From assembly GCA_036557285.1 (NCBI GenBank), contig DATBHW010000047.1:101001-137051 (forward strand): a stretch of DNA of 36,051 bases, written 5' to 3'. This DNA is from Ktedonobacterales bacterium. GTDB lineage: Bacteria; Chloroflexota; Ktedonobacteria; Ktedonobacterales; DATBGS01. Made by a program: the position numbers and the translations under genes. Below the pieces are notes generated by a model. The model was not told the DNA's origin, searched no databases, and saw only the letters and a program-made list of their open reading frames with translations. How positions within the stretch are numbered: position 1 is the stretch's first letter; every line of letters starts with the position of its first letter. This document shows, one piece after another, positions 5,896 to 23,824 of the stretch.

Positions 5896-6110
5896 GTTCC
5901 ACCACCTATCGGGGGTTGCCACTTGTAGCGCCGCCTTCCAGGCGGCTCAACGCTGGCCTGCTAGTGTGCTGGCCCGCAGGGCAAACGCTCGCCCTGGCGC
6001 AGCGGTGGCCGCCTGGAAGGCGGCGCTACAGGTGGCGCAGCGGTGGCCGCCTGGAAGGCGGCGCTACAGGTAACACGCCTCGCCTGCCAACCCCTCATGT
6101 TTGGCGTCCC
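5896..6110. mobile_element. Hairpin-repeat MITE copy 1
   Basis: The left end reads GTTCCACCA at 5896-5904, then a tract with ATCGGGGGTTGCC. A left hairpin arm (GTAGCGCCGCCTTCCAGGCGGC type) follows, then a middle segment. Two tandem copies of the right arm (GCCGCCTGGAAGGCGGC) come next, and a degraded right end ...TTGGCGTCCC stops at 6110. No target duplication is visible. The right end lies 42 bp before the -10 box of the 6199 gene. The rest of the 411-bp gap 5787-6198 holds that promoter and the upstream region of the dehydrogenase. Confidence 0.75.
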
Positions 6111-6127
6111 TTAACCACCCGCCGCAT

Positions 6128-6157
6128 TTGCCTTCCAACCTGGCAGCATGGTATACT
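6128..6157 (+). promoter_or_regulatory. Promoter of the 6199 gene
   Basis: TTGCCT (6128-6133), 18 bp, TATACT (6152-6157). The predicted transcript starts near 6164. This rules out the in-frame ATG at 6148, which lies inside the -10 region, and supports the start at 6199. Confidence 0.55.
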
Positions 6158-6198
6158 GGGTGGCAAGCATTGGCCGAGTTCAGGAGGGGGAGACGCTC

Positions 6199-7443
6199 AT
6201 GGACGACAACTACTTCGAGGTCGAGGACTCAACGCCGCTGCCGAAGCAGCAGCAGCACACCGATGACCTGCCGCAGATCGATCTGGAGCCGGAAGGACCG
6301 CGCCCGCCCTCCCGACGCAAGCGCCTGACGCAGATCGGCCTCGTACTTGGCGCGCTCGTCGTGGTCCTGGTGACATTTCAGAGCGCGCTCGCGCCATCTC
6401 ATCCTGCGCCCAGCGCCCCCACCCCCCTGCCGACCATCCCGCCGCCTCTCGCGGTGATCAGCAGCAATATTAACTTCGGCGCCGTCACCATCAACGGCCT
6501 ACGGCAGCGCGGCACGGTTCCCATGTTCTTCAGGCCACACGACACGACCTATACGGTCATCATCAACGCGTCCCCCTTCCGGCCAGTATCCTGCACCTTC
6601 ACGTTTTTTCGCGGCGCGCCTGAACCTACCGGGCCGGGCTGCTCCATCAACTCCGACAGCTTCCAGACGATCACCGCCAACGGCATCACCGCTGCTCCCT
6701 CCTACTGGGTTGAGATTGATTTCACAGCGAGGGATTTGCCAGCCGACCAGCGCAGCCAGATCAACGCGCTGCTGGCCCATTCGGTCATCGCAGAGCAAAC
6801 CACGACGGTTCCCGCAGGCTCTTATATCGCCACCAGCCTCAACGGAGGCGGCGCGATTACCAGTCGGCGCGCCGGCGCCGCGCTCAAGGGCACTGCATCC
6901 CTGGCCGCCAGCGACAACATCTGGCAGATCGGGTTCGATTGCATCGGGCTGATCTGCCAGGCCGTCGCTGACCCGCGAACCCTCAGCGCCTTCACCGGCA
7001 TGGCCTGGGTAATCGGTGTGCCAGCCGCGCTGCGCTGGCGCTTTACCACGTCAGCCGGGCAGATGCTTGGGGATGTCTCCTTTCCGGTTTTTGAGACGCT
7101 GCCAGCCCTGCTGACCTACTCGCCCGACAACGGTTGGAGTTTCTTATACGAGCTAGACTTTAACCCGCCCAGCACTGCGGCTTCGATAGGCATTGTGGAC
7201 TGCAATACCGGCGCCCAGGTGTTGCAGCAGCAAATCCAGTACATGAGCTTTGGCTTCGCCACGACCAGCGCCGACCAGGGAATCGAGGGCTGCCAGATCA
7301 CCTTGCAGGACACTGGCGGGACTGGCCGGGGCAGCTTCATCTGGCGCTTTGGGGTGCTGCTGGCTGCCGACAGCGAGGCCCACCATCGGCTGCCCCAACT
7401 GCCTGTCGCCCCACCGGCAGAGATCGCCGCTGTGCAGGGCTAG
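6199..7443 (+). CDS. Membrane-anchored extracytoplasmic protein, unknown function
   Basis: 414 residues from the ATG at 6199, which has GGAGGGGG at 6183-6190. An acidic cytoplasmic N-terminus (about 1-40) ends in basic RRKR. One membrane helix (about 45-63) follows, then a Pro/Thr/Ser linker and a roughly 340-residue outer region rich in beta-type, Thr/Ser/Gly-rich sequence with six or so scattered cysteines that could form disulphides. I do not recognise the outer domain. It sits between the two S53 proteins and shares their layout (short cytoplasmic tail, single helix, low-complexity linker, outer domain), so a role at the cell surface together with them is possible but not shown. Confidence 0.8.
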   Translation: MDDNYFEVEDSTPLPKQQQHTDDLPQIDLEPEGPRPPSRRKRLTQIGLVLGALVVVLVTFQSALAPSHPAPSAPTPLPTIPPPLAVISSNINFGAVTINGLRQRGTVPMFFRPHDTTYTVIINASPFRPVSCTFTFFRGAPEPTGPGCSINSDSFQTITANGITAAPSYWVEIDFTARDLPADQRSQINALLAHSVIAEQTTTVPAGSYIATSLNGGGAITSRRAGAALKGTASLAASDNIWQIGFDCIGLICQAVADPRTLSAFTGMAWVIGVPAALRWRFTTSAGQMLGDVSFPVFETLPALLTYSPDNGWSFLYELDFNPPSTAASIGIVDCNTGAQVLQQQIQYMSFGFATTSADQGIEGCQITLQDTGGTGRGSFIWRFGVLLAADSEAHHRLPQLPVAPPAEIAAVQG

Positions 7444-7469
7444 GCATTCGCCCGCAGCCTTTGTCTCCT

Positions 7470-7631
7470 GGTTCCACCAATGATCGGGGGTTGCCGCTGG
7501 TAGCGCCGCCGTCTCGGCGGCTCAACGCTGGCCTGCTGGTGTGCTGGCCCGCAGGGCGAACGCTCGCGCTGGCGAATCGTTGGCCGCCGAGACGGCGGCG
7601 CTACAGGTGGCCCCCGCTTTTCGGTAGAACC
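7470..7631. mobile_element. Hairpin-repeat MITE copy 2, flanked by a 9-bp target duplication
   Basis: 162 bp. Left end GGTTCCACCA at 7470-7479, right end GGTAGAACC at 7623-7631. The 9 bases immediately outside are identical on both sides: TTGTCTCCT at 7461-7469 and 7632-7640. Inside, left and right hairpins have matching variable cores (GCCGCCGTCTCGGCGGC and GCCGCCGAGACGGCGGC). No ORF is present, so any movement needed a transposase supplied elsewhere. The right end lies 41 bp before a -10 box. Confidence 0.85.
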
Positions 7632-7647
7632 TTGTCTCCTATTCCCC

Positions 7648-7677
7648 TTGACATATGCCTCTCCCTCGCTCTATGCT
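7648..7677 (+). promoter_or_regulatory. Promoter of the second S53 gene
   Basis: TTGACA (7648-7653), 18 bp, TATGCT (7672-7677). The predicted start near 7684 gives a leader of about 140 bases before the peptidase ATG, which contains the small ORF at 7728. Confidence 0.65.
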
Positions 7678-7727
7678 TGAGCAGCGAAAGCGCGCGAGTT
7701 GAAGCCGAAGGAGCAGGGCCATGCACG

Positions 7728-7826
7728 ATGACCAGGGAGAGCGCCAAAGACTTCCTGCCTGCGCTGGTTGACGCGGCCAATCAACTGCCACAAACCAACG
7801 CGCAAGCAGGAGAACCAGTGCTATGA
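7728..7826 (+). CDS. Possible 32-residue leader peptide coupled to the S53 gene
   Basis: ATG at 7728 with AAGGAG at 7708-7713, a longish spacing. It encodes MTRESAKDFLPALVDAANQL and twelve more residues, and its TGA (7824-7826) overlaps the peptidase ATG (7823) as ATGA. It lies wholly in the leader of a good promoter. The overlap suggests translational coupling, but no homologue is known to me and a chance ORF is possible. Confidence 0.35.
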   Translation: MTRESAKDFLPALVDAANQLPQTNAQAGEPVL

Positions 7827-9373
7827 CCTTTTCTTCAGAAGCGGGGCCAGGCAAGGACCAGACCGCGACGGACGCGCCGCTGGACGATTCGCCTGTTCAG
7901 GAGCAGCCCCCGGCAAAACCGAACACGCGCCTCTTGTTCCTCCTCCTGGGGGGACTGGCGCTCCTCGTCATCTTCACTCCGCTGGCCCTGACGCTCGCGC
8001 AGCGCCCCGCGCCAGCGCCCATCGCGCAGACAACGCCAGCCGCCAGCCCAACGCCAGCGCCCACCCCTACTGAAACGCCGCCAGCCTACACGCCCGCCGG
8101 AACCGCGCCCACCAGCGCGCAGTGCCAGAGCCTCATCCACGCGCCCTGCTACAGCCCGGAGCAGATGCAGCAGGCGTTCCGCCTGACCCCGCTCTATAGG
8201 CAAGGCTATGACGGGCGCGGCCAGACCATCGTGATCCTGGGGACAGGCAAGACCACCACCCTTGCAGCCGATCTGCACCAGTTCGATCTGGCCTGGGGCT
8301 TGCCCGATCCCACCTTCACCATCCTGCACCCCTTTGGCCCGCCCGCGCCCTATACCTGCGCCGGTGGCATGGACGATCTCCAGCTTGAAAATACGCTCGA
8401 TGTCGAATGGTCGCACGCGATGGCCCCAGGAGCCAGCATCATCCTGCTCATCGGCTCCAACGACTCAGGCGGCCCGCGTTCGGCAAACTGCGCCTACGCC
8501 GGGCTGCTGGACGCCCTGGCTTATGCCGTTGATCAGCATCTCGGCAGTGTCATCTCAATCAGCTATGGCGGCAGCGAACTGGGCGACATCTCCGAAAGCG
8601 CCAGCGAAAAAGCGCAGGACCGGCGCTTTTTTAATCAAGCGCACGCCCTCTTCGAGCGAGCGGCAAAAGCAGGCATCACCGTCCTGGCCTCCAGCGGCGA
8701 TGACGGCGCCACCAACTTCAACAGCTTCTCCAATCCCTCGTCCGTTTGGGACCACCCCAACATCTCCTGGCCCGCCTCTGATCCGGCTGTCCTGGCTGTG
8801 GGCGGCACCAGCCTGGCGCTGGCAGACGCCAACGGCCTCTATGGCTCCGAGACGGTCTGGAACGCCGGGGGCGGCTCAACCGGCGGCGGCCTGAGCGCCG
8901 TCTTTCAGGAGCCAGATTACCAGCATGCCATTCCCGATCAGACCGTGCTGCATGGCAAGCGCGGCATCCCCGATATTTCCTTCCCGGCAGCCGTCAATTA
9001 CGCTCTCTATGGCTCATTCCTCATCGGAGAGCTTGGCGCGCATCGCTCGCAGTGGAGCCACTGGGACATCATCGGCGGGACCAGCGCCAGCGCCCCCTGC
9101 TGGGCCGGATTGATCGCCATCGCCAACCAGATGCGCGGCAAACCGCTGGGCTTGGTCCAGCCCGCCCTCTACAGCCTCATTGGCAGAGAGATGCACGACA
9201 TTATTACCGGCGATAACAGCCTGCATGGCGTGACCGGCTACCAGGCCCGGCCCGGCTACGATCTGGCTTCAGGGTGGGGTACGCCCATTGCCGATACGTT
9301 TCTGCCCGCCCTGATTCAAGCCGCCGACCTGCTCGCCGCTGGCTGCCCCAACCGCTACCGCGCCTGCCCTTGA
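7823..9373 (+). CDS. Membrane-anchored S53 family serine-carboxyl peptidase (kumamolisin-like)
   Basis: 516 residues. A cytoplasmic tail of 36 residues, a membrane helix at about 37-59, a Pro/Thr/Ala linker to about 95, then an S53 domain to the C-terminus. All catalytic elements are visible: Glu189 and Asp193 (ENTLDVEW), oxyanion Asp293 (SSGDDG), Ser421 in GGTSASAP, and the calcium site DIITGDN with GYDLASGWGTP. It is a predicted acid endopeptidase held on the outer face of the membrane (type II topology). Classical S53 enzymes carry a prodomain of about 150-200 residues before the core; here only about 40 residues separate helix and core. AGGAG at 7808-7812 supports the ATG. It is the active-looking paralogue of the protein at 2722. 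Confidence 0.92.
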   Translation: MTFSSEAGPGKDQTATDAPLDDSPVQEQPPAKPNTRLLFLLLGGLALLVIFTPLALTLAQRPAPAPIAQTTPAASPTPAPTPTETPPAYTPAGTAPTSAQCQSLIHAPCYSPEQMQQAFRLTPLYRQGYDGRGQTIVILGTGKTTTLAADLHQFDLAWGLPDPTFTILHPFGPPAPYTCAGGMDDLQLENTLDVEWSHAMAPGASIILLIGSNDSGGPRSANCAYAGLLDALAYAVDQHLGSVISISYGGSELGDISESASEKAQDRRFFNQAHALFERAAKAGITVLASSGDDGATNFNSFSNPSSVWDHPNISWPASDPAVLAVGGTSLALADANGLYGSETVWNAGGGSTGGGLSAVFQEPDYQHAIPDQTVLHGKRGIPDISFPAAVNYALYGSFLIGELGAHRSQWSHWDIIGGTSASAPCWAGLIAIANQMRGKPLGLVQPALYSLIGREMHDIITGDNSLHGVTGYQARPGYDLASGWGTPIADTFLPALIQAADLLAAGCPNRYRACP

Positions 9374-9386
9374 GATCGCCCGGCTT

Positions 9387-9791
9387 CTATTCGAGCGGCG
9401 CGGTAAGCTCCAGTTGGATGCCATCGGGGTCGTTGAAACTGAGGATGGTAATCCCGAAGGGCACGAGGTCTCTGATCTCCCCGTGTTCCACGCCGCGCTC
9501 CTCGAACAGCGCCAGCGCCTTCTCCAGTTCAGCGCGATTGGCAACGCCAAAGCTCAGGTGATCCAACCCTACGCGATGCGGGCTGAAACGGTCATTTTCG
9601 ATAGCCAGGCTGGGATCCCAGGGCGGCGTCAGCCCCAGCAGCATTTTGCCATCGGTCATGACATAGCCTGGGGGCAGTTCCACCGCCAGCCTGAAGTTGA
9701 GCAGGCTGGTGTAGAAGGCCAGAGAACGAGCGGGGTCAGTGACGATCAGGCGCATGTGGTGGACACCAGTGGTGGTAATCTCTACGGACAT
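9387..9791 (-). CDS. VOC-superfamily protein (glyoxalase/dioxygenase fold)
   Basis: 134 residues, two beta-alpha-beta-beta-beta modules. The expected metal-ligand positions are filled by His12 (GVHHMRL), His78 (GLDHLSFGV) and Glu128 (DGIQLEL). Members include glyoxalase I, extradiol dioxygenases and antibiotic-binding proteins; the substrate cannot be inferred. AGGAAGGA precedes the ATG at 9791. It converges on the S53 gene, with 13 bp between stops. Confidence 0.88.
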   Translation of the reverse strand: MSVEITTTGVHHMRLIVTDPARSLAFYTSLLNFRLAVELPPGYVMTDGKMLLGLTPPWDPSLAIENDRFSPHRVGLDHLSFGVANRAELEKALALFEERGVEHGEIRDLVPFGITILSFNDPDGIQLELTAPLE

Positions 9792-9906
9792 CGCGTCATC
9801 CTTCCTTGAGGCGCATCTCGTCTTGCTCTCTCAGATGCCAATGGCCTCGATGAAAACCCGTAACTGTCTCTGCGCCTCTTTCTACCTATTACTGTAGTAC
9901 GATACA

Positions 9907-10120
9907 GCGGGGACTGGCAGCGCCGCCATCCTGGCAGCTTTCGCGGGGGGGGTGCGGGGACTGGCAGCGCCGCCATCCTGGCAGCCTTCGCGGGGGAAGC
10001 GGGGACTGGTAGCGCCGCCTTCCAGGCGGCTCGACGTGGGCGTGCCGCAGCCATGCCCCTGAAGGAGCAGCGTTTGCAGCAGCGCCGCGTTGGCCGCCAG
10101 GGATGGCGGCGCTACAAGTG
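9907..10120. repeat. Hairpin-repeat cluster with tandem left arms
   Basis: Three successive left arms starting at 9907, 9954 and 9999 (periods 47 and 45 bp), each beginning GCGGGGACTGG(C/T)AGCGCC. The first two have the core CCATCCTGG with one side of the stem decayed; the third is intact (GCCGCCTTCCAGGCGGC). A middle segment and a right arm ending at about 10120 follow. The cluster fills most of the 353-bp gap 9792-10145; the remainder is the upstream region of the VOC gene. Confidence 0.75.
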
Positions 10121-10145
10121 GCGGAGCTGCACGGTCTGAGATCGA

Positions 10146-11141
10146 TCAGGCGCCCAGGTCTTTGTTGACCTGATCGAGCGCCGACTTGACGGCTTGCAGG
10201 TCATCAAAGACAGGCTGCATATCGTGGAGCGACTTCACCAGAGCAGCCACATCCGCTTTCAACTGGGTATCTGCCGGAGGCGGCGCGGCCTCTTTCGCGG
10301 CGGCCAGCGCGTTCATCAGGTCTACGCCAATCGCTCCATGCCAGACCCCCACGTTGCTGACCCAGCAGAGTTTACACTGCTTGAACACCTGCCCGTTGCC
10401 GTTCCCTTTGCCTGGCTGTCCAGCGTCGGCAGGCCAGTAGGCATGTTCGTCTTCCAACGGCCAGTTGTCCTGCTCCCACCCTTTTAGCACCTCCTGGCGG
10501 AAACCGCCGCGTACCTGCTTCCCGTTCGGAGCCGTAAGAATTGCCCCGTCATCCTTCCATCCTGCCGGAATAGTTGACACCGAAGAACCTCCCTGGAGAA
10601 ATTGAAAGAGCGCAGCCCAGGGGTATGGCCCCGGACAGCGCGCCTTATTGGTCCCATCAATCGAATAATGTCCGGTGATCCCGCCATTCTTGTCAGCCGC
10701 GCGCGCCGGAATGTGCAGCCGCGAGGCCAGCCATTTGACTAGCTCAAAGCTCGCGTCTTGCTGCGCGGGTGTCAGCGGGTCGCCGTTGTCTGTGCGTGTC
10801 TTGCAATGTTCAATACTGACCGTGACAAAGTTGGGGTTCAGGCCGCCCAGGGTATTTCAGAAGGCATCGTGCTTCGCCCCCAGGATACCGTTGCCATAGG
10901 CCGCATCAGCCAGACTGACCATCTGAATGACCTGGCCGTTTTTCCCGATCACGAAATGGACCCCGTGATCGCGCTGCCCCTGAAACCATCTGGCTTGCTG
11001 CTCAGCCGTCCCGTCTCCAGAAGCGGTGCCATGCAAGATAATCCATTTTGGAGCATGTCCCTCGCGCCCATGCGAGCCGCGCGGATCATAGCCAAACCCA
11101 GGAATCGGCGCCCAGGACGCCCCTGGATATTCTGCGCTCAT
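10146..11141 (-). pseudogene. Phage-type N-acetylmuramoyl-L-alanine amidase interrupted by an in-frame TGA
   Basis: One continuous frame of 331 codons from the ATG at 11141 (AAAGGAG nine bases upstream) to the stop at 10146, broken only by TGA at 10859-10857 (codon 95). Before the stop: an Amidase_2 N-terminal half with zinc ligand His37 (IILHGTASG) and GVHFVIGKNGQV. After it, in the same frame: NPNFVTVSIEH, zinc ligand His158 (GHYSID) and Cys169 (RCPG). Residues 189-331 form a C-terminal region with LTAPNGKQVRGGFR and a helical tail, probably for wall binding. The enzyme would cut the amide between muramic acid and the peptide stem. The stop removes two of three zinc ligands, so the gene is dead unless the UGA is read through. 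A single TGG to TGA change is the simplest explanation. Confidence 0.85.
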
Positions 11142-11333
11142 AACAAGCTGCTCCTTTTGCAAAAGACCCCACGTTCAGAAATCCACGTCTCCCACACTAC
11201 AAAGCGGATCAGCGATCTATTTCAATGCGCAACAATGGATCGGCCCCTGCCTTCTTGCAGCGCAGCATGGGCCTGTGATCCGTTCGTTACGAACAACGGT
11301 ACAAGTGGTGAAGATTCGCAGCCGAGCCGCCGA

Positions 11334-11616
11334 CGGGCTGGCGGTTCATGATTTTGATTATCAAATTGGCTATTCGTCTTAGCCTGCTTCACACAACCGA
11401 CGGTTGGCCCCACCCCTGCTGCCTGGAAGGACGGCGCTACAACCCCGCCCCTGCCGCCTGGAAGGACGGCGCTACACCCCCCCCTGCTCGTGCGGAGGTT
11501 GTGTGAGGCGCTCTTAGCCTGCGCAGGCAGGCTTTGTGGCGTAGCCTTCAGCCGCCAGCCAATAATGGCCTGGGCGTACCGGATGAAAAAGTCAAAAATC
11601 ATGAACCGCCAGCCCG
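11334..11616. repeat. 22-bp perfect inverted repeat enclosing a MITE copy
   Basis: Positions 11334-11355 and 11595-11616 are perfect inverse copies (begins CGGGCTGGCGGTTCATGA), 239 bp apart. The right copy is the last codons and the TGA stop of the methyltransferase gene, so the gene end is duplicated in inverse at 11334. The interior carries the family-2 MITE. A 14-base piece of the same sequence (ACCGCCAGCCCGCT) recurs near 13376, just past the stop of the 13389 gene. The remainder of the gap 11142-11598 (11163-11333) shows only a short imperfect palindrome around 11280-11298 with GTTCG/CGAAC arms. Confidence 0.7.
11378..11517. mobile_element. Family-2 MITE copy A (CACACAACC ends)
   Basis: About 140 bp. 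The ends are CTTAGCCTGCTTCACACAAC at the left and the inverse of CTAAGAGCGCCTCACACAAC at the right. The interior holds a tandem pair of GCCTGGAAGGACGGCGCTAC units. It matches the element at 18179-18283 in inverse orientation over nearly its whole length, except that copy A has two internal units instead of one. Non-coding. Confidence 0.75.
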
Positions 11617-12387
11617 CTTGAGCGCGTAGCCGAGATAGGACGCCAGCGTATGGCCGCCTATCTGGAAGCGGGCCGCCGCGCCCATCTGGCCGATGGAGAG
11701 TCTGCCGCGCTTATAACGACGCAGCAGGCGAAGCAGGCTCAGGGGATTGGTCGCCGGATTCAGGCCCATGATCTCCTGGGCTTCCAGGCCATGCCGGGAA
11801 AGCCCGCGCTTGAGTTCGGCGGGCGTAATGAACTGCTCCCAGGCGTGCAGGTCCGGCGGCAGAAACGCCGTCGCCCGCCACTCCTGAAACAGCTTGATAA
11901 CCACCAGCTTGCTAAAAAGCGTGCGGTTGATCGTCTCGAAGCAGTAGACGCCGCCTGGCGTGAGGACACGAGCCGACTCCGCGATCACCCTGTCCTGATC
12001 GCCGACATGCTCCAGCGCATCGCAGCAGTAGACCAGATCGAAGCTGGCATCTGCAAAGGGAAGCTGCTCGCCTACGCCCACCTGATAGTCAATTACCAGA
12101 GCCGATTGTCGCGCGTGCGCACGCGCCGTCGCAATCGCTGGCTCCGCAGGGTCAATGCCCGTCACCCGACAGCCCAGCCGGGCAAACTCTTCGGCCAGCA
12201 GCCCACCGCCGCAGCCAACATCCAGCGCGCGCAGGCCGCGCGGATCGAGCCGCAGCCGCTCGGTCAACATCTGGCGGAAATAGCCGAAGCGCGCTGGATT
12301 CAGCGCGGTGCGCAGCAGCGAAAACGCCTCGTTTTCATCCCACCAGATGTCGCCCTGGAAGTTTTCGAGTTCAGGATCAACAGGCAA
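11599..12387 (-). CDS. UbiG-like class I SAM-dependent methyltransferase
   Basis: 262 residues. The N-terminal WWDENEAFSLLRTALNPARF resembles the UbiG (polyprenyl-hydroxyphenol O-methyltransferase) start. SAM motif I is DVGCGGG at 56-62, the acidic post-loop GIDP is at 77-80, and CCDALEHV and LTPGGVYCFETINR follow. UbiG methylates ubiquinone precursors, but Chloroflexota generally use menaquinone, so the substrate here is open. The start is TTG at 12387, with AGGTGA nine bases upstream; the gene begins 13 bp after the NTF2-fold gene stops, so the two are probably co-transcribed. Its 3' end is one arm of a 22-bp inverted repeat. Confidence 0.83.
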   Translation of the reverse strand: MPVDPELENFQGDIWWDENEAFSLLRTALNPARFGYFRQMLTERLRLDPRGLRALDVGCGGGLLAEEFARLGCRVTGIDPAEPAIATARAHARQSALVIDYQVGVGEQLPFADASFDLVYCCDALEHVGDQDRVIAESARVLTPGGVYCFETINRTLFSKLVVIKLFQEWRATAFLPPDLHAWEQFITPAELKRGLSRHGLEAQEIMGLNPATNPLSLLRLLRRYKRGRLSIGQMGAAARFQIGGHTLASYLGYALKRAGGS

Positions 12388-12400
12388 TTCAGCGGTTCAC

Positions 12401-12964: not shown

Positions 12965-12993
12965 AGTATACAGGAACGCGGCTCTTTTGGAAA
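12965..12993 (-). promoter_or_regulatory. Promoter of the NTF2-fold gene
   Basis: On the minus strand, TTTCCA (12993-12988), 17 bp, TATACT (12970-12965). Start predicted near 12958, about 120 bases before the ATG. The MITE end at 13010 is 40 bp from the first base of the -10 box. Confidence 0.5.
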
Positions 12994-13009
12994 GAGCAAA
13001 AGCGCCAGG

Positions 13010-13178
13010 GGTTCCACCACCTGCCACTTGTAGCGCCGCCTTCCAGGCGGCTCAACGTCGGCCTGCTGGTACGGTGGCCTGGAGGGCGAACGTTCACGCT
13101 GGCGCAGCGTTGGCCGCCAGGATGGCGGCGCTACAAGTACCATGCCTCGCTTGCCAACACCTCCTGTGTGGTGGAACC
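13010..13178. mobile_element. Hairpin-repeat MITE copy 3
   Basis: 169 bp with clean inverted ends: GGTTCCACCA at 13010-13019 and TGGTGGAACC at 13169-13178. GCGCCAG occurs just outside both ends (13002-13008 and 13179-13185), probably a worn target duplication. The left hairpin core (TTCCAG) no longer matches the right (AGGATG), unlike copy 2. The centre carries GCGAACGTTC(A/G)C. Confidence 0.8.
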
Positions 13179-13189
13179 GCGCCAGCCGC

Positions 13190-13835: not shown

Positions 13836-14092
13836 GGTTCCACCAATGATCGGGGGTTGCCGCTCGTACCGCCGCCGTCCCTTCGGGAAGGGCCGCTTGC
13901 CTCGGCTATGCCTCGTCGAGCGAGAGGTCCTCGCTCCCGTTGGTCGCTCGCGCGTCCCTCCCGGCGGCCACCGCCGCGCCAGAGCGCGCGTGCGCCCTCC
14001 AGGCCACCGTACCAGCAGGCCAGCGTTGAGCCGCCGAGACGGCGGCGCTACGGGCTGGCCGCGCTTGTCAGCCCCTCATGTGTGGCAGAACC
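13836..14092. mobile_element. Hairpin-repeat MITE copy 4
   Basis: 257 bp; ends GGTTCCACCA (13836-13845) and TGGCAGAACC (14083-14092). The flanks GCGAACCGC and GCAAACGGT agree at 6 of 9 positions, perhaps an old target duplication. It contains extra hairpins with core GTCCCTTCGGGAAGGG in the left half and a matched GCCGCCGAGACGGCGGC right arm. It occupies over half of the 493-bp gap 13773-14265; the rest is the promoter and leader of the 14266 gene. Confidence 0.75.
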
Positions 14093-14130: not shown

Positions 14131-14139
14131 TGCTATACT
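14131..14139 (+). promoter_or_regulatory. Extended -10 promoter of the 14266 gene
   Basis: TGCTATACT at 14131-14139 is an extended -10 (TGnTATACT). No good -35 lies 17 bp upstream, as is usual for extended -10 promoters. Start near 14146, giving a leader of about 120 bases. The MITE end at 14092 is 42 bp from the -10 hexamer. Confidence 0.5.
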
Positions 14140-14523: not shown

Positions 14524-14542
14524 AACCGACGAGATAGAGTTT

Positions 14543-16072: not shown

Positions 16073-17359
16073 ATGAGACAATTGGCTGACTCGCCAGCGC
16101 CTGCCGAGATACGCCTGCATGGACGCTGGCTGCTGATTGCCCGCGTGGCCTGGCTCAGCGTGGCGATAGTGAGCATTACCAGCTTTTTCCTGACCCTCCC
16201 GTTCACCTTCGCAGATCTGGAGCAGGTCTGTACCAGCGCGGCGTGCGATTTCCGCCTGCGCCCCCAGGACCTGCCTGTGCTGGCAGAATGGGGCCTGTCT
16301 CCCGCCGCCTTCGCGGCCTATGGCACGACGCTGAACGGGCTGGCATACCTGGCCTGGATCGCGATGGGGGTGCTCCTCTTCGCGCGAGGGTCCGCTGAAC
16401 CCCGCGCGCTCTTCTTCTCGTTCTGCCTGCTGGTCTCTGGCGGCGGCCCCAGCCCCGACCTGGCGATGGTCCAGCCGATCTGGCGCCTGCCGGTGGCGGC
16501 CTGGCTGTTCCTCGCCTCTATCTGCCTCTACCTGCTCTTGCTGCTCTTCCCGAATGGGCAGTTTGTCCCCCGCTGGGCGCGCTGGGTGGCGCTCGCCTGG
16601 ATCGTGCTCAATGTACCCGTCAGTTTCTTTCCAGACTTGCCTCTGCGCCCAGATACCTGGCCGGGCGCAGCCTTCACTCTGGGCTTCTTCGGGTACCCCA
16701 TTGCGGCGCAGGTCTACCGCTATGCGCGGCGCTCGACGCCCCTGGAGCGCCAGCAGACCAAGTGGGTGCTGCTGGTGCTGGGCCTCTTCCTGCTGCTGCT
16801 GCTTGGCGGCGGGCCAGTCGTCACTGGGAAGGCCACGGCGCTCTGGGTGGTGCTCGTCCTTGGTACCGCGCTTCAGGTAGCGATCCTCCTCATCCCGCTC
16901 GCTATTGCCGCCTCGATCTTGCGCTATCGGCTCTGGGAGGTGGACAGCCTGATCAACAAGGCGCTGGTCTATGGCCTCCTGACTGGCATCCTGGGCGCGC
17001 TCTACGCGGGCCTGATCATCGGCCTGGAGCATCTGCTGGGCCTCTTCGGCGGGACCGCCGCGCAAAACCCGATAGTGCTGGTCGTCTCCACTCTGGCAAT
17101 CTTTGCCCTCTCCCTGCCCCTGCGCCGCCGCATCCAGCGCCTGATTGACCGCCGCTTCTATCGCAAGAAGTACAATGCCGAACAAACCCTGGCCGCCTTC
17201 AGCGCCTCGCTCAGGAATGAAGTTGATCTAGAGCAGGTGCGCGCGAACTTGCTGGCGGTGGTGCAGGAAACCATGCAGCCCGCCCACGTCTCGCTCTGGC
17301 TGCGCCAGCCAGCCTGGCGCACTGCCGAGGCGCTCCCCCCGGCGGAAACGCTTGAGTAG
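16073..17359 (+). CDS. Eight-helix membrane protein, sensor-kinase input half without the kinase
   Basis: 428 residues; AAGGAGG lies just before the ATG at 16073. About eight membrane helices are followed by a cytoplasmic segment with RRIQRLIDRRFYRKKYNAEQ and then LAAFSASLRNEVDLEQVRAN. This arrangement is known from Chloroflexi and actinobacterial sensor histidine kinases, where a GAF domain and kinase follow. Here the protein stops about 30 residues after VVQETMQPAHVSLWLR, without H-box or ATPase motifs, and no kinase frame follows in the next 260 bp. It may be a truncated kinase or a stand-alone sensor. Spacing of 114 bp from the previous gene allows co-transcription. Confidence 0.82.
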   Translation: MRQLADSPAPAEIRLHGRWLLIARVAWLSVAIVSITSFFLTLPFTFADLEQVCTSAACDFRLRPQDLPVLAEWGLSPAAFAAYGTTLNGLAYLAWIAMGVLLFARGSAEPRALFFSFCLLVSGGGPSPDLAMVQPIWRLPVAAWLFLASICLYLLLLLFPNGQFVPRWARWVALAWIVLNVPVSFFPDLPLRPDTWPGAAFTLGFFGYPIAAQVYRYARRSTPLERQQTKWVLLVLGLFLLLLLGGGPVVTGKATALWVVLVLGTALQVAILLIPLAIAASILRYRLWEVDSLINKALVYGLLTGILGALYAGLIIGLEHLLGLFGGTAAQNPIVLVVSTLAIFALSLPLRRRIQRLIDRRFYRKKYNAEQTLAAFSASLRNEVDLEQVRANLLAVVQETMQPAHVSLWLRQPAWRTAEALPPAETLE

Positions 17360-17575
17360 GCAAGATGCGCTAGCGCGCTGCGCTCGGCATACGTCTCGTT
17401 CTCCTGCTGCGAGACCAGCGGACGCGGGCGGCCAGTTTTTCCTCGCCTTGAGCAATACGAACCAATCAGGACCGAGTATTACCGGTTTCGGGACGATAAT
17501 CAAGCCAGGAGATGATCACGGCTCCACTCGTGATCTCTGATAAGCGATAGAGCAGCGTTACGTCAGATTGACTGT

Positions 17576-17605
17576 GATGCGCCTGCACCAGTCGGCAGGC
17601 GCATC
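17576..17605 (+). promoter_or_regulatory. Hairpin immediately upstream of the DinB-gene ribosome site
   Basis: GATGCGCCTGC (17576-17586) and GCAGGCGCATC (17595-17605) form a perfect 11-bp stem with an 8-base loop. It ends 5 bases before AGGAGG (17611-17616) and 15 bases before the ATG. No T-run follows, so it is not a terminator; it may stabilise the mRNA or affect translation. Another inverted repeat (GATCACG/CGTGATC, 8-base loop) lies near 17514-17535. The rest of the gap 17360-17620 is featureless. Confidence 0.6.
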
Positions 17606-17620
17606 CCCGCAGGAGGACAC

Positions 17621-18181
17621 ATGGAGACCTTATGGAACACGGCGCTGTGGCGGCAGTTCGGCGCGGCTATTGAGATGCTGGAAAACGCCCTGCTGGCCTG
17701 CCCGGAGGCGCTGTGGCAAGAGCGCCTCTGGCGCAACCCCCCATCACCGGAGTTCCCGCCACCGTTCGCGGAGTTCTGGTATGTCACCTATCATACACTG
17801 GTCTGGCTCGACCTGTATCTCTCAGGCGTCCCGGAGGAGGACTTTGCTCCCCCGGCTCCCTTTGCCCAGAGCGTGCTCGATTCCGCCGAGGCGCTGCCTG
17901 CACAGCCCTATACCAGAGAGGAACTGCGCGCCTATCTCGCCGCTTTGCGCCAGAAGTGCCGCGCCACGCTCCTCGCGCTGACGGGCGAGCAGGCGCGGCG
18001 ACCCGTCTCGTATCCCTGGTCCAGGGGGCAGCCTATCAGCTTTCTGGAGTTGCTCCTCTACAATCTGCGCCACGTCCAGGAACATGTGGCCCAACTGAGC
18101 CTCTTTCTCGGCCAGCACGGCATCCCGGACGAGGCGCTCATCGCGGTTGCGCGCGCGAAGGATGAGCCTGGGGACCATTAG
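17621..18181 (+). CDS. DinB-family protein (four-helix metal-binding fold)
   Basis: 186 residues, all-helical. Candidate metal ligands of the DinB/YfiT fold are His in TYHTLVWLDLYLSG and the HVQEHVAQL pair near the end; PWSRGQPISFLELLLYNLRH is the typical third-to-fourth helix segment. DinB-like proteins include thiol-dependent transferases and many of unknown function. AGGAGG at 17611-17616 sits 4 bases from the ATG. The TAG stop (18179-18181) is part of the end of the family-2 MITE copy B, so the last codons may have been set by that insertion. Confidence 0.85.
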   Translation: METLWNTALWRQFGAAIEMLENALLACPEALWQERLWRNPPSPEFPPPFAEFWYVTYHTLVWLDLYLSGVPEEDFAPPAPFAQSVLDSAEALPAQPYTREELRAYLAALRQKCRATLLALTGEQARRPVSYPWSRGQPISFLELLLYNLRHVQEHVAQLSLFLGQHGIPDEALIAVARAKDEPGDH

Positions 18182-18283
18182 AGCGCCTGACACAACCTCC
18201 GCACGAGCAGAGGCGGGGTTGCAGCGCCGTCCTTCCAGGCGGCAGAGGTGGGGCCAACCGTCGGTTGTGTGAAGCATTCTTAA
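18179..18283. mobile_element. Family-2 MITE copy B
   Basis: About 105 bp. Left end TTAGAGCGCCTGACACAACC, right end the inverse of CTTAAGAATGCTTCACACAA plus CC. One internal GCCGTCCTTCCAGGCGGC unit. In inverse orientation it matches copy A (11378-11517) almost base for base outside the duplicated centre. The remaining bases to the next start (18284-18449) show nothing recognisable besides that gene's ribosome site. Confidence 0.75.
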
Positions 18284-18449
18284 GCGCGCGGTGGGCCACC
18301 TATGGGGTAGCTCTTGCCTTCCCACCCATGCGCTAAGATCGGACGCCACACAAACCTGACAACAGGTGTCTGGAAGAGGCTGGTATGCTTCAGCAGAAAG
18401 CGCGCCAGGCGCTCATCACCGCAGTTCATCCATACAGGAGGTATTTTCG

Positions 18450-18953
18450 ATGGAAGCACAACCTGCTGAAACCAGCGAGCCAGAAGCCAGTCGCCCGCGC
18501 ATGTTTGGCGGCCATCTTGAGCCGACGCGGCTCCCCTGGAAATGGGCAGTCGCTCAATTAGAAGTAGCCCGCAACTATTGGATCGCCACCACGCGCCCCG
18601 ATGGGCGGCCACACTGCCGCCCGGTCTGGGGCGTCTGGCTGGATGGCCTCCTCTACTTCAGCACTGGCGCGCTGACCTGGAAGAACCTGGAACACCATCC
18701 CGCGACCACCGTCCATCTGGAGAGCGGCAGCAAAGTCGTCATTCTGGAGGGCATCACCGAAGAGATGAAGAACCCCTCTCTGCTGGAGCAAGTGGCCTCC
18801 GCCTACGAGGCCAAGTACCATTGGAAGCTGGACACAGACGAACTCCCCTATGCCTTCCGGCCCCAGGTTGCCTTTGGCTGGTGTTCGGATGACGAAGGAC
18901 TCGACGGTGGCTCGGCCTTTCATGGCACAGCCACGCGCTGGAAGTTCCCCTGA
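18450..18953 (+). CDS. Pyridoxamine 5'-phosphate oxidase-like FMN/F420-binding split-barrel protein
   Basis: 167 residues from the ATG at 18450, chosen because AGGAGG ends seven bases upstream; the frame continues further up without a ribosome site. The fold signature is YWIATTRPDGRPHCRPVWGV, then LLYFSTGALTWKNLEHHPAT and TVHLESGSKVVILEG. Family members are oxidases or F420-dependent reductases that act on small substrates; cofactor and substrate are not decided by the sequence I can read. Single gene, convergent with the phage-type genes to its right. Confidence 0.85.
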   Translation: MEAQPAETSEPEASRPRMFGGHLEPTRLPWKWAVAQLEVARNYWIATTRPDGRPHCRPVWGVWLDGLLYFSTGALTWKNLEHHPATTVHLESGSKVVILEGITEEMKNPSLLEQVASAYEAKYHWKLDTDELPYAFRPQVAFGWCSDDEGLDGGSAFHGTATRWKFP

Positions 18954-18960
18954 CCCCCTC

Positions 18961-19090
18961 TCGTACCGCCGCCGTCTCGGCGGCTCACCGTTGGGATGCC
19001 GAGACGTGGCGAAGCACGCCAGCAGCGTTCGCATTGGTGCAGCGTTCAGCCGCCATTTCTGGCGGCGCACTCGTACCGCCGCCAGAGATG
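18961..19090. repeat. Hairpin repeat between convergent genes
   Basis: Left arm GTACCGCCGCCGTCTCGGCGGC, a decayed middle, then arms with GCCGCCATTTCTGGCGGC and the start of another GTACCGCCGCC arm. No GGTTCC ends. It fills the space between the stops at 18953 and 19111. Confidence 0.65.
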
Positions 19091-19110
19091 GCGATCCCGT
19101 CGCGCGCTGG

Positions 19111-20175
19111 CTAGAGCCGCTGCCAGCGCGCCGGTACATCGCCCCACTGCGCGATGGCCGCGTTGGCAAAAGCGCGCTGACGCCTGATCTCTTCTAGCCG
19201 CGCCAGAAAGCGGCCCAGCCTATCCACGCCCGCCTGCCGCCAGTGTTTAGGAATCATCGAATCATCCAGCCGGTCATGCACCGCGCCATCCTGAAACACA
19301 AAGTTATCGTTGGTCGGCGTCTGATAGGCCAGCAGCGCGTAGGCGCATGCCCCCAGCACCACCACATCGCGGTCAACTTCAGGGATCGTGCTGCCGTTCG
19401 CGTCAAGCTGGTGCTTCGTCCCAAAGGACACGCGCAGCGCCAGACTGGCATCCACCGGCAGTTCGGCATCGGCCAGCTTCAGCGTGAACGTCCCCAGGCC
19501 AGTATATTCTGTAAACGCCCGCCGGATGGGCGGATAGACCAGCAGCCCCGCCGTATTCACCGTCGGCGCTGCCGCGCCCAACGTGCTATCTGCCGCGCTG
19601 TCGTGATAGCTCGTCGTCGTCGTATCATCGAGCGTCGCCAGCAGCAGCAGCGCGCCCCCATCCGCAATTGTGCGATAGAGCCGCCGCGCCAGCACCGCCA
19701 CGCTGGCATTGGCCGCTGGCGTCGGCCCCAGCGGAATGTCAGTCAGGTCCGTCTGCTGAAGACCGCTCGTCGTCGTCACGCTCCCCAGCGGGCCGGGTGG
19801 CGTATCGCCGCTCGCCGTCACAAACGTCACCGCGTACTGATACAGGCCCAACCCCAGGCCCACACCAGCAGCCACCGCCAGCGTCGGGGCGCTGGCAGGC
19901 GCGGCAATGGCCGAGCCAGGCACGAGCAGCGGAAACTCGACGCGCTCCACCCACCAGGCTCCGCTCGCCGGACTCATCCCCGCCGGAAAGGGATACGTGC
20001 GCTGGCCGGGGATGCTCGCCATATCCACCACCACCATATGGGGCGCGTAGGCGCTGTAGCGGTCCACCGCCTTATCCAGCGCCCGGTCAAGATCGCTGGT
20101 TTGCCAGCGTTGATCTGCCCCGGCAGGGTCAAACAGGTCTTGCCGCACCGCATTTTCAAGATCGGTCAGATTCAT
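19111..20175 (-). CDS. Phage structural-type protein, adaptor (head-tail connector)-like
   Basis: 354 residues. The N-terminal part (MNLTDLENAVRQDLFDP, then WQTSDLDRALDKAVDRYSAY) and the C-terminal part (VDRDVVVLGACAYALLAY to LARLEEIRRQRAF) resemble phage gp6-type adaptor proteins. Between them lies an inserted Ala/Thr-rich, beta-sandwich-like domain (about 85-215) with the pattern LYQYAVTFVTASGDTPPGP, like an fn3-type or surface domain. GAGGAGA lies upstream of the ATG at 20175. It starts 22 bases after the stop of the tail-type gene, so the two form an operon. Intact, although its phage neighbours are not. Confidence 0.65.
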   Translation of the reverse strand: MNLTDLENAVRQDLFDPAGADQRWQTSDLDRALDKAVDRYSAYAPHMVVVDMASIPGQRTYPFPAGMSPASGAWWVERVEFPLLVPGSAIAAPASAPTLAVAAGVGLGLGLYQYAVTFVTASGDTPPGPLGSVTTTSGLQQTDLTDIPLGPTPAANASVAVLARRLYRTIADGGALLLLATLDDTTTTSYHDSAADSTLGAAAPTVNTAGLLVYPPIRRAFTEYTGLGTFTLKLADAELPVDASLALRVSFGTKHQLDANGSTIPEVDRDVVVLGACAYALLAYQTPTNDNFVFQDGAVHDRLDDSMIPKHWRQAGVDRLGRFLARLEEIRRQRAFANAAIAQWGDVPARWQRL

Positions 20176-20197
20176 CTGTATCTCCTCTGCTGACGGT

Positions 20198-20956
20198 CTA
20201 CGCCTTCAGCGCCAGTTGCGACCAGTAGATCGTCGCGGCGCTGACCGCCAGCGCAACGTTCACCTGAAGTTGCAGGGTGTGTGTACCCGCCGCGATAGTC
20301 TGATAAAATGCAAACGTAAACATCTGGGCCTCGCTCGCCTGCGTCACCAGCGCATCTTTGCCGGGGATAGGCGGCTGCTGGGGGCCGATCTGCACGCCAT
20401 CCAGCAAGAAGACGACATGCAGCCCTGCCCCAGCCATGCCGAAGCGAAAATGCAGCGTAGCCAGCGCCAGAAACGTCGCGCTGGCTCCCAGCGTAAAAGT
20501 AAGCTGATTCAGGATATGAAAGTCAGGATCGTTGAACGTCACCGTTGAAGCGTTCGTATCCACCAGCGGCGGGCTGCCAGAGCCGCCGCTGGCGTCAATG
20601 ATGATCTGCTGGCCGCTCTCGCTGATGCTGACATTGCCGGATGGCCCCGGAACGAGCTGCACAGCGCCGGTCAGCGCCGCGCCGCCCGTGTCCCCGGTCA
20701 GGCTGGTCACGGGCGGGACCGGCGCTGCCGATGGCACGCGGTACACCGCGACCACAAGCGCGTCGTCAGGATTGAGTTCGTTGAAAAAGAGGATAGCGCA
20801 GTGATCGCCCGCCGCAATCTCGGCGGCCAGCAGATGCTTTGCCACCTGCACGCTCGCCAGATAATTGCCCTGGCTGGGCAAGACCTGCACCGTCGCCGTC
20901 CAATTCGTCTGATTGAAGTCTTGAATAATGCCGCGCCTGATAACTGCTGATTCCAT
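20198..20956 (-). CDS. Phage tail/baseplate-type protein with OB-fold-like N-terminus
   Basis: 252 residues from the ATG at 20956 (MESAVIRRGIIQDF), with GGAGA upstream; the frame is open for 180 more codons but without a ribosome site. Residues 1-70 (ATVQVLPSQGNYLASVQVAK, AGDHCAILFFNELNPDDALV) look like the OB-fold start of phage baseplate or tail-fibre proteins. A Gly/Pro/Ser hinge follows, and then a beta-rich domain (about 120-252) with alternating hydrophobics typical of jelly-roll fibre tips. First gene of the pair with the adaptor-like protein. The phage origin is inferred from pattern and neighbour. Confidence 0.6.
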   Translation of the reverse strand: MESAVIRRGIIQDFNQTNWTATVQVLPSQGNYLASVQVAKHLLAAEIAAGDHCAILFFNELNPDDALVVAVYRVPSAAPVPPVTSLTGDTGGAALTGAVQLVPGPSGNVSISESGQQIIIDASGGSGSPPLVDTNASTVTFNDPDFHILNQLTFTLGASATFLALATLHFRFGMAGAGLHVVFLLDGVQIGPQQPPIPGKDALVTQASEAQMFTFAFYQTIAAGTHTLQLQVNVALAVSAATIYWSQLALKA

Positions 20957-21013
20957 CGGGCCATGCTCTCCTATTCTCGAACGACAGGCCATACGCAAGG
21001 AGCAAGGGCTGCC

Positions 21014-21514
21014 ATGCAAGACCAACCCGACCCCTGGCAAGCGCCGCCTGCGCCGCGCTTCAACTCGCCGCTGGGTGTAATCATCAGCGCACTCATTGTG
21101 GGGCTGCTGCTCTGCTCGTGCGCCGCGACGGCGCTGGTCCCGGTCTTTGTCGCCAGTTCGCCGCAAGAAACCACAACCGATCACGCCTTTCAGGTACTCT
21201 TCACGGCGCTCTTTGTGCTGTTGGGGCTGCTGCTGCTGCTGACAGAGCGCCAGCTTCTCCGCCGAAGCTGGCCGCGAACGCCCGTCTCCTTCGCCCGTCT
21301 GCTCTTCACCACCGCCTCCGGCATCACCTTCTGGACCGGCCTGGTCCTCTTTGGCATCGCGCTGGCGCGGCTGACAGCGCCCGCCGTCGCCGACCCCCTC
21401 AACATCGCCTTCTGGGCGGTAGCGGCCCTCTGGCTGCTGACCGAAATCATCTTGAACGCCCGCCACCTGCTGCGCCCGCGCCGCGCCCGCGCGCCCGGCC
21501 ACGACGAACTTTAG
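21014..21514 (+). CDS. Four-helix membrane protein, unknown function
   Basis: 166 residues from the ATG at 21014 (AAGGAG at 20996-21001); the upstream in-frame ATG at 20963 lacks a site. A Pro-rich cytoplasmic N-terminus (DQPDPWQAPPAPRF) is followed by four hydrophobic helices (about 20-45, 57-77, 92-117 and 126-148) and an Arg-rich tail (RPRRARAPGHDEL). Divergent from the phage tail-type gene, with 57 bp between starts. No family recognised. Confidence 0.75.
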   Translation: MQDQPDPWQAPPAPRFNSPLGVIISALIVGLLLCSCAATALVPVFVASSPQETTTDHAFQVLFTALFVLLGLLLLLTERQLLRRSWPRTPVSFARLLFTTASGITFWTGLVLFGIALARLTAPAVADPLNIAFWAVAALWLLTEIILNARHLLRPRRARAPGHDEL

Positions 21515-21761
21515 GTTCCACTACATATGAGGTATTGGCAAGCGAGGACGCCACTTGTAGCGCCGCCATCCTGGCGGCCCACCGCTGCGCCGTCATCAAC
21601 GTTGCCCTTCCAGGCAACCCCACTTGTAGCGCCGCCATCCTGGCGGCCAACGATTCGCCAGCGCGAGCGTTCGCCCTCCAGCGCAACGTTCCGGCAGGCC
21701 AGCGTTGAGCCGCCTGGAAGGCGGCGCTACAGGTGGCCCCGCCCCGGTAGGGGGTGGAACC
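21514..21761. mobile_element. Hairpin-repeat MITE copy 5
   Basis: 248 bp. Left end GGTTCCACTA at 21514, right end GGTGGAACC at 21753-21761. Two left arms with core CCATCCTGG and one right arm GCCGCCTGGAAGGCGGC. It begins directly after the stop codon of the membrane gene; no target duplication is visible. With the promoter below it accounts for the 353-bp gap 21515-21867. Confidence 0.75.
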
Positions 21762-21778
21762 TATCCCGCCAGTCCCCC

Positions 21779-21807
21779 TTGCGCCTCTGGCTGCTCTGCC
21801 TTATACT
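21779..21807 (+). promoter_or_regulatory. Promoter of the 21868 gene
   Basis: TTGCGC (21779-21784), 17 bp, TATACT (21802-21807). Start near 21814. The MITE end at 21761 is 41 bp before the -10 hexamer. Confidence 0.55.
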
Positions 21808-21867
21808 TGAGTCGTTAAAATTGAAATGAGCAATGTACATGAGAGGTAAAAAGGTTACAGGCACGTT

Positions 21868-22809
21868 ATGGACTCACTCCCTTCCGTTCGGCGGCTGCCC
21901 TGGCTGCCGGGAACGTTTCTGATCACGCTGGCGGCTATGATTGCCGTCATTATCCTGGCAGACCGAACACTGACCCTGCGCACCGGCCTGGTGGTTGGGG
22001 CCATCATCGCGCTGGGGCTGCTGGGCGGCCTCTTCGTCTACAAGCGCAGCCTCAATCGCGCCCGCTGGGCCGGGCAACCGGCCAGAGGCGCTCCCCCCCG
22101 GCGGCCCGCCGGCCCCTACGATCCAACCGAGTATCTGACCCCCGCGCGCCAGGCAACGCTCCCCACGCGCTGGCCGCGCCTGCGGGCGCTCACGCGAGCC
22201 GCGCCGCTCTTTGGCGTCGGCCTCGCCTTCTGCTTTCACTATCAGGTCGCCTCGGACCTCTTCTCTGCCCGCTCGGCTGACAGCCTGCCCGCCGTCATCT
22301 CCGTCACGCTTCTGGCGCTGGGCTTCGCCGTCGGCCTGGCAACGCGGCCCTACGCGCTGCGCCCATCGCGCCCGGCCTGGATGGCCTGGGCCGCGCTCAC
22401 CCTCATCATCACCGAATGGCTCACCCTCTTTATGCTCTTCACCGCCACCTTCGACGGCTCCTATCGTTCGGCCATCGCGCCTGCCCTCGTGGCGCTGGGC
22501 GCTGTCGTCCCGCTCGTCACGATGGCCCGCGAACTCATGGACCGGCGCTACTCCGCCCAGCTTGCCGGAATGACCATCTCCGGCCCAGGAGCCAAACCCA
22601 GTCGGCTGCGCGCCCTCTGGCGCAGCGGCGGCGCGCGCTTCGCCATCGGCGCGCTGGGCCTGCTGGCCCTGGCCGCCTATATCCTTCTCACCGCGCCGCA
22701 CCTCAGCGGCCCTTCGCTGGTGGTGCGCGTCTGGCCCATCATCCTCGCCGTCGGCTGCATCCTCATCCCGCGCGGCAAAGTGGAGAACATCGGCTCAACA
22801 CTGGCCTGA
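21868..22809 (+). CDS. Multi-pass membrane protein, paralogue of the 23905 gene
   Basis: 313 residues, about seven to eight hydrophobic helices. It opens with a motif PWLPGTFLITLAA near residue 11. A basic Arg/Pro-rich loop follows helix 2 (about 60-105), then TRAAPLFGVGLAF and a block with GFAVGLATRPYALRPSRPAW leading to TEWLTLFMLFT. The same blocks recur in the same order in the 23905 protein. No known family. It has its own promoter and ends 63 bp before the next gene. Confidence 0.78.
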   Translation: MDSLPSVRRLPWLPGTFLITLAAMIAVIILADRTLTLRTGLVVGAIIALGLLGGLFVYKRSLNRARWAGQPARGAPPRRPAGPYDPTEYLTPARQATLPTRWPRLRALTRAAPLFGVGLAFCFHYQVASDLFSARSADSLPAVISVTLLALGFAVGLATRPYALRPSRPAWMAWAALTLIITEWLTLFMLFTATFDGSYRSAIAPALVALGAVVPLVTMARELMDRRYSAQLAGMTISGPGAKPSRLRALWRSGGARFAIGALGLLALAAYILLTAPHLSGPSLVVRVWPIILAVGCILIPRGKVENIGSTLA

Positions 22810-22872
22810 GCTACAAGGCTTCTTCTCACCTCTGGTGCGCTCGTTCGTGTCCACCATGACAGGAGGTTGACT

Positions 22873-23541
22873 ATGATCCAGGCGTCCAGGATCAAACGGC
22901 TCTGCGAAAGCCTCACCATCAAAATGGCCGACACCGTTCCAGAGCCTGTCACCAGGGCGATTCTAGCCAGCCTGGTTGAAGCCGTGACTGAACAGCGCGA
23001 AGAGATCAACGAAAAATTAGATAGGCTGCTTGGCAGCCACTACAAAAACGGCATCAATTATCTCAACGACGCAAAAGTGGTGGAACATGCCGCCAGAAGA
23101 CAGAAATGGATCGAAGCGGCCCTGAGCGAGTTCATGAGCGCGTCAAGCCTGGAAGAAAAGCCGCTGATGACCGCCAAATCCGCGTTTTTTGTCGGAGTCT
23201 GTTACTTCCTGCTCGGTGAAAGACTCCTGGCCCTGAACTGGTACGAGAAAGCGTATCAAACCGTCTGCGACATAGAAAACGCCCTGCTCAAAAAAGCCAG
23301 ACAGAACCCGCTGATCAACGCCGGGCTGCTGCTGAGCCTGTATGGCTCGCCCGTCTATGGCTATCGCAAGTTCCAGCAATATCGAACACGAAAGCACCTT
23401 AAAGAGTTCCACGAGCGATTTGTCGTGCCTCTGTCAGATTTGCTCTCTTCGCTCAACTCGCAGGTCAACACCCGTGAAACAGCGCGCCAGCTAGAAACCT
23501 CCTACAGCGGGCTGCTTGAACTCCTGCCGGAAGAGGAATAG
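22873..23541 (+). CDS. Helical protein of unknown function
   Basis: 222 residues from the ATG at 22873, six bases after a perfect AGGAGG (22861-22866). Mostly alpha-helical: the N-terminus has TEQREEINEKLDRLLGSHYK, a TPR-like middle has FFVGVCYFLLGERLLALNWY followed by EKAYQTV, and the helical C-terminus ends LLELLPEEE. There is no membrane segment of full length, except that LINAGLLLSLYGSPVYGY is moderately hydrophobic. Its Lys/Glu-rich composition is unlike that of the Ala/Arg-rich neighbours. I recognise no family. Confidence 0.78.
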   Translation: MIQASRIKRLCESLTIKMADTVPEPVTRAILASLVEAVTEQREEINEKLDRLLGSHYKNGINYLNDAKVVEHAARRQKWIEAALSEFMSASSLEEKPLMTAKSAFFVGVCYFLLGERLLALNWYEKAYQTVCDIENALLKKARQNPLINAGLLLSLYGSPVYGYRKFQQYRTRKHLKEFHERFVVPLSDLLSSLNSQVNTRETARQLETSYSGLLELLPEEE

Positions 23542-23549
23542 CGCGCCCC

Positions 23550-23777
23550 AGGCGCGGCGTCTGTACCTGTAGCGCCGCCGTCCCCGGCGGCCACCTGTAG
23601 CGCCGCCGTCCCCGGCGGCCACCGCTGCGCCTGGGCGAACGTTCGCCTTCCAGCGCGAGCGTTCCGGTAGCCCGACGATGAGCCGCCAGGGACGGCGGCG
23701 CTACAGGCGCTCCGCAGCCCCTCCTGCCGCCTGGAAGGCGGCGGTACCAGTGGCGCCCCTTGATGGGTGGTGGAACC
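23550..23777. mobile_element. Hairpin-repeat MITE copy 6
   Basis: Right end TGGTGGAACC at 23768-23777; the left end is not GGTTCC but a CAGGCGCGGCGTCTGTACC tract that recurs at 26913, so the left limit is approximate. Two left arms with core GTCCCCGG, centre GCGAACGTTCGC, a GATGAGCCGCC tract shared with the 26797 cluster, and two right arms. It fills most of the 363-bp gap 23542-23904. Confidence 0.7.
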
Positions 23778-23795
23778 CTGGGGTGGCTGATACAG

Positions 23796-23824
23796 TTGAC
23801 ACCTCCAGCAGATACAGCTATACT
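23796..23824 (+). promoter_or_regulatory. Near-consensus promoter of the 23905 gene
   Basis: TTGACA (23796-23801), 17 bp, TATACT (23819-23824): eleven of twelve consensus bases at optimal spacing. Start near 23831. The MITE end at 23777 is 42 bp before the -10 hexamer. Confidence 0.8.

Follow-up and report, generated by a model that had tools for sequence, protein, structure and literature searches.

The six repeat copies in the window (the whole 36,051-nucleotide stretch of Ktedonobacterales DNA analysed here) belong to a genome-wide swarm of MITEs that lie at a fixed distance upstream of predicted promoters of the sigma-70/sigma-A type. These MITEs have terminal inverted repeats (TIRs) of the ISKra4 type, with the outward end GGTGGAACC, and were probably moved in trans by a Mutator-like DDE transposase of the ISKra4 group that is directed to promoters; we put the probability of this reading at about 0.88. 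The transpososome would dock on a promoter already engaged by the RNA polymerase holoenzyme and cut the DNA, with a 9-bp stagger, on the upstream side of the polymerase-promoter complex, at about -53 to -45. A copy inserted in this way would land ahead of the gene and leave the promoter core unbroken. The promoters are predicted, and the spacing observation on which this reading builds is real and genome-wide.

The sequence-only reading had proposed a constant distance between these elements and the next -10 box. Counting from the terminal base to the first base of the -10 box, we recomputed the distances in the window as 42, 41, 42, 41, 42 and 40, identical to all six earlier values; the first is uncertain by about 1 bp, the gene-facing end near 6110 being degenerate. 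The -10 hexamers of the predicted promoters facing the six copies are TATACT in five cases and TATGCT in one. By the same terminal-base counting, the -35 boxes of four of the six copies (6128, 7648, 21778 and 23796) start 17-19 positions from the end, while the genome-wide distances given below are counted as intervening bases. The sequence between the element end and the -10 box differs in every copy, so the earlier statement that the spacing does not come from a shared copied promoter holds. The coordinates are given in Table 1. At the other side of the first copy, its left end faces a TATACT at 16 bases (window 5825-5894), ahead of a minus-strand ORF (4638-5786), the -35 region of which may have been replaced by the element.

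Table 1. Positions in the window of the six MITE copies, their target duplications and the predicted promoters that face them.
Feature	Position	Strand	Remarks
MITE copy 1	5895..6111	.	Left end AGTTCCACCA; degenerate at the right, where the boundary may be off by 1 bp
Promoter facing copy 1	6128..6157	+	TTGCCT 6128-6133, TATACT 6152-6157
Target duplication of copy 2, left, 9 bp	7461..7469	.	TTGTCTCCT
MITE copy 2, complete, 162 bp	7470..7631	.	
Target duplication of copy 2, right, 9 bp	7632..7640	.	TTGTCTCCT, perfect match to left
Promoter facing copy 2	7648..7677	+	TTGACA 7648-7653, TATGCT 7672-7677
MITE copy 3, complete, 169 bp	13010..13178	.	Near-perfect 8-bp duplication, 13002-13009 and 13179-13186
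Promoter facing copy 3	12965..12993	-	TATACT 12970-12965; weak TTTCCA 12993-12988
MITE copy 4	13836..14092	.	Right end GGCAGAACC
-10 TATACT facing copy 4	14134..14139	+	Without a good -35
MITE copy 5, complete, 248 bp	21514..21761	.	
Promoter facing copy 5	21778..21807	+	TTGCGC 21778-21783, TATACT 21802-21807
MITE copy 6	23562..23777	.	Intact at the right end; start approximate because the left end could not be recognised
Promoter facing copy 6	23796..23824	+	TTGACA 23796-23801, TATACT 23819-23824

Beyond the window, the genome (5.1 Mb in 82 contigs; its named relatives are Ktedonobacter) has 152 exact GGTTCCACCA sites, against 9 for the reversed control. Our sample consisted of the first 100 of the listed GGTTCCACCA places, each with up to 20 kb of context and picked regardless of neighbouring promoters, which amounts to 1.14 Mb of the same genome and 103 exact element ends. 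Outward of these 103 ends, the interval 38-41 bases away contains a total of 33 -10-like hexamers where chance would give 2.45 (P 7e-26); the background is flat, at 0.59 per position at 0-36 and 0.61 per position at 43-109. For the 98 outward ends the peak falls at 39 and 40 intervening bases (15 and 13 ends, respectively, with 0.33 expected at each), and TTGACA-like -35 hexamers peak at 16 intervening bases (10 ends, against a background of 0.34). Hence, the genome-wide distance distribution, which the sequence-only reading would have expected to be flat if its idea were wrong, has a sharp peak at 38-41. A promoter at the right spacing faces at least one end in 35 of the 41 complete elements of the sampled stretches, where random positions give 1.7 by chance; in the other six, no promoter could be recognised at that position. 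Of seven motif matches lacking the element interior, none has a promoter at this spacing. When the strict signature was scanned in all species genomes, it was found in six stretches only, two of them from Ktedonobacterales.

The structure of the elements bears out their identification as MITEs, since they are short, non-coding, multicopy transposons bounded by TIRs and flanked by 9-bp duplications. The 41 complete copies measure 68-335 bp, and one element of 460 bp was found separately. Their terminal inverted repeats, GGTTCCACCA and TGGTGGAACC, bear an outward terminal C as in the ISKra4 group, and the two element ends can be told apart (GGTTCCACCAnttATCGGGGG and GGTTCCACCAnAnATGAGGTGTTGGCAAGCGAG). 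A 9-bp target duplication with at least 7 of 9 matching bases flanks 28 of the 41 complete elements, perfectly in 13 cases (shuffled pairings give 0.7), and 4 further complete elements fit an 8-bp duplication. Both end types are used at similar rates, with promoters facing 26 of 75 left ends and 9 of 20 right ends; the oriented insertion known from p-MULT 3, with only the right end beside the promoter, is thus not what we found. Going outward from the element, the target duplication comes before the -35 box, which means that the promoter is host target DNA outside the element. The interiors of the MITEs (at 5925, 7500, 13030 and 21557 in the window) consist of GTAGCGCCGCC...GGCGGCGCTAC palindromes that resemble GTAG-tagged REPs (PMC3733652). 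Palindrome units of this type also occur away from the MITEs: for 152 of 339, the nearest exact MITE end is over 400 bp distant. Six matches to the Y1 transposase (PF01797) were found in the genome.

Which transposase could have moved these elements? ISKra4 and subgroup-d transposases were not found in the genome of the bacterium itself (the assembly is 97% complete), and its sampled stretches yielded the 460-bp element but no full-length IS with GGTTCCACCA ends. Judging from sequence similarity, the source was probably an ISKra4-group mobiliser that is now absent, or undetectable, in this genome. Related elements with GGTTCCACCA ends are thinly spread among other Ktedonobacterales, and at least one further genome of the Chloroflexota has them too. 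In one of these elements, which is 403 bp long and comes from K. racemifer (L100 3001-3403), part of an ISKra4-family transposase survives (NF033572, E 4e-6); this remnant and the subgroup-d transposase share 54% identity (E 4.4e-18). Similar remnants lie within GGTTCC-ended elements of two relatives (G032 and G027), and the identities of the three range from 51 to 60% (E 4.4e-18, 2.7e-15 and 3.7e-12). Furthermore, intact ISs of the subgroup-d type have ends similar to those of the MITEs, e.g., GGTTCTACCCAAAACCTGGGG. Instead of a target duplication, the K. racemifer element is flanked by near-identical inverted copies of one and the same promoter and gene start (TCTCCCATCATCCC..TTGAC..TATACTAAACAAAATG). 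In the genome from another Chloroflexota family (G119), a 167-bp GGTTCCACCA element (L193 1343-1509) has a TTGACA/TATGAT promoter on one side, spaced as elsewhere, and perhaps a divergent one on the other. We also considered ISAs1 as the mobiliser. ISAs1-like transposase genes, recognised by eye, occur in two species (L099 and L101) immediately beyond a GGTTCCACCAACAATCGGG end of the K. racemifer type, and the sequence in between is the same in both; this candidate was rejected because these ORFs are not part of the element and probably represent a separate insertion.

Full-length copies of ISKra4-family elements in five relatives follow the same rule. They form ten groups and must be recent, since copies within a group are 99.7-100% identical. 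Seven groups (a, b, c, g, h, i and j) have 9-bp target duplications, and most of their copies have, at one end, a TTGACA at 16 bp and a TATAAT-like box 39-40 away. Where an IS end has a strong promoter at 15-17 bp, the -35 box is at exactly 16 in 13 of 15 cases, with the -10 box mostly at 39. The rule is less clear in the few copies seen of groups d, e and f, which have the most MITE-like ends; one IS copy with MITE-like ends (L216) fits it. In three copies of groups d and f (L164, L170 and L171, from G044/G045), a TATACT lies only 8-10 bases outside one end, which places the insertion inside the promoter and not upstream of the -35 box. These are 3 of the 10 copies with the most MITE-like ends, a small sample counted post hoc, and their placement is possibly a second insertion register. 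One group e copy in G044 (L168) is inserted beside or within the end of a group d IS. The history of an insertion could be followed at valS, where one species (G040) carries an IS. The promoter there, TTGACATTTG...TCGATAGACT, is also conserved, apart from minor differences, in four other species (G039, G001, G036 and G038) that show no IS at valS, and hence the promoter is older than the insertion. This conclusion uses valS only, as the upstream alignment in the corresponding empty-site comparison at yajQ was poor.

How is the distance set? When the spacer of the promoter lengthens from 17 to 18 bp, the distance to the -10 box shifts by one and that to the -35 box stays constant, although the 18-bp class is small (7 cases from MITEs, 1 from an IS). 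The mean distance to the -35 box is 16.3 bp with 17-bp spacers and 16.1 bp with 18-bp spacers (the means range from 16.0 to 16.3). The ruler is therefore set from the -35 side, and it is more accurate to give the spacing as 16 bp between element end and -35 box, with 39-41 bases to the -10 box. Both boxes are at the right place for 22 of 95 ends, against 0.24 expected (about 90-fold), and the -10 box alone for 14 of 95, against 2.7 expected (about 5-fold). A -35-like box alone is at the right place for 6 of 95 ends, against 7.7 expected, which is no enrichment. This suggests that a -35 box is insufficient as a target on its own, even though the -35 side sets the distance.

These combinations bear on whether the transposase could read the promoter DNA directly, through a -35-like motif, bendability or melting, and dispense with the polymerase. 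The sharpness of the signal and its being keyed to the -35 box are what such a mechanism would produce, and we regard it as a possible, if clearly less probable, alternative. However, a -35 box alone occurs at chance frequency and the two boxes together at about 90 times expectation, which fits occupancy by the holoenzyme better than recognition of a single motif. The pattern fits docking on a holoenzyme-occupied promoter, and it would be the polymerase itself, rather than promoter DNA, that guides the transposase.

The sequence-only reading had left undecided whether insertion is guided or whether only copies at this limit survive or help transcription. In the latter case, insertion would be nearly random, and the copies just upstream of promoters would be those that persist or aid transcription as an insulator, a UP-like element or an activator site. 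Some selection surely acts, since insertions in core promoters or genes would be purged, and the element boundary does match the upstream edge of polymerase contact. Yet a survival edge predicts a plateau at larger distances, where we saw only the background of 0.61 per position at 43-109, and helix-phased activation predicts peaks about 10 bp apart, of which there was no secondary trace. The distance distribution led us to reject both models. In addition, the nearly identical, recent IS copies already have the same spacing, and the rule is common to several end sequences (GGGTGTGATTCA, GGGTGAGCGTCAT and GGTTCCACCA). We consider post-insertion selection very unlikely as the source of the spacing. 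The evidence favours targeted insertion over the survival of lucky copies. Targeting accounts for the recent copies, the target duplications and a peak this sharp, as well as for the fact that either end can face the promoter; the older promoter at valS is further support.

It is barely conceivable that the promoter belongs to the element or is provided by it, which would make the spacing internal to the repeat. Outward -35 boxes are frequent in transposon ends, but the sequence between end and -10 box differs from copy to copy, the valS promoter exists in species without the IS, and the position of the target duplication, between the end and the -35 box, refutes the idea. Least credible of all is a coincidence produced by choosing degenerate -10 hexamers by eye, a bias that the sequence-only reading itself admitted and that proved unfounded, because a mechanical genome-wide scan with fixed criteria, on ends sampled regardless of promoters, still shows the peak (P about 7e-26) and the control pattern gave 3 matches against 75.

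The swarm, together with the many recent autonomous copies in relatives, constitutes a natural insertion data set on how a transposase recognises promoters. It points to a distance set from the -35 side, to a -35 box that is insufficient alone and to a promoter that precedes the insertion. In this bacterium, a considerable number of genes now have the same short sequence just upstream of the polymerase site. The GGTGGAACC ends at about -53 could have been kept as shared upstream elements or insulators, although we think this improbable; if true, promoter-targeted transposition would have given many genes of the lineage rewired upstream regions.

Placement upstream of promoters is already reported for full-length elements of the ISKra4 type. 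Those of the ISKra4 group (p-MULT 4) insert 15-17 bp upstream of the -35 box of sigma-A promoters and generate 8-9 bp repeats, four K. racemifer elements (ISKra2, ISKra4, ISKra5 and ISKra6) being among the cases (Guerillot et al. 2014, PMC3942029). ISLre2 and TnGBS have the same 15-17 bp spacing, and contact with the polymerase initiation complex was proposed for these elements, with the yeast element Ty3 as a model for targeting via the transcription machinery (PMC3942029). The analogy with Ty3 is limited to its precise integration beside promoters; Ty3 is a eukaryotic retroelement guided by TFIIIB/TFIIIC to Pol III promoters. The MITEs share with the ISKra4 group the 8-9 bp duplication, the outward terminal C, the -35-spaced insertion with either end facing the promoter and the remnants of its transposase family inside like-ended elements of relatives. 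Unlike ISKra4 ISs, they are short (68-335 bp), carry no transposase, have GTAG-tagged palindromes in their interior and number well over 100 ends. They also differ from TnGBS and ISLre2 (p-MULT 3), which are large ICEs or autonomous ISs with mostly the right end toward the promoter, in using both ends. Like other bacterial MITEs, such as RUP, NEMIS, Nezha and MITEAba12, they are small, non-coding, mostly intergenic, bounded by TIRs and flanked by target site duplications. To our knowledge, which includes a search of the open-access literature, base-exact promoter targeting is not known for these or similar MITEs. Within the same literature, three aspects appear to us to be new: a large non-autonomous swarm in a genome without a detectable ISKra4 transposase, a -35-keyed spacing combined with dependence on the -10 box, and an ancestral promoter at valS.
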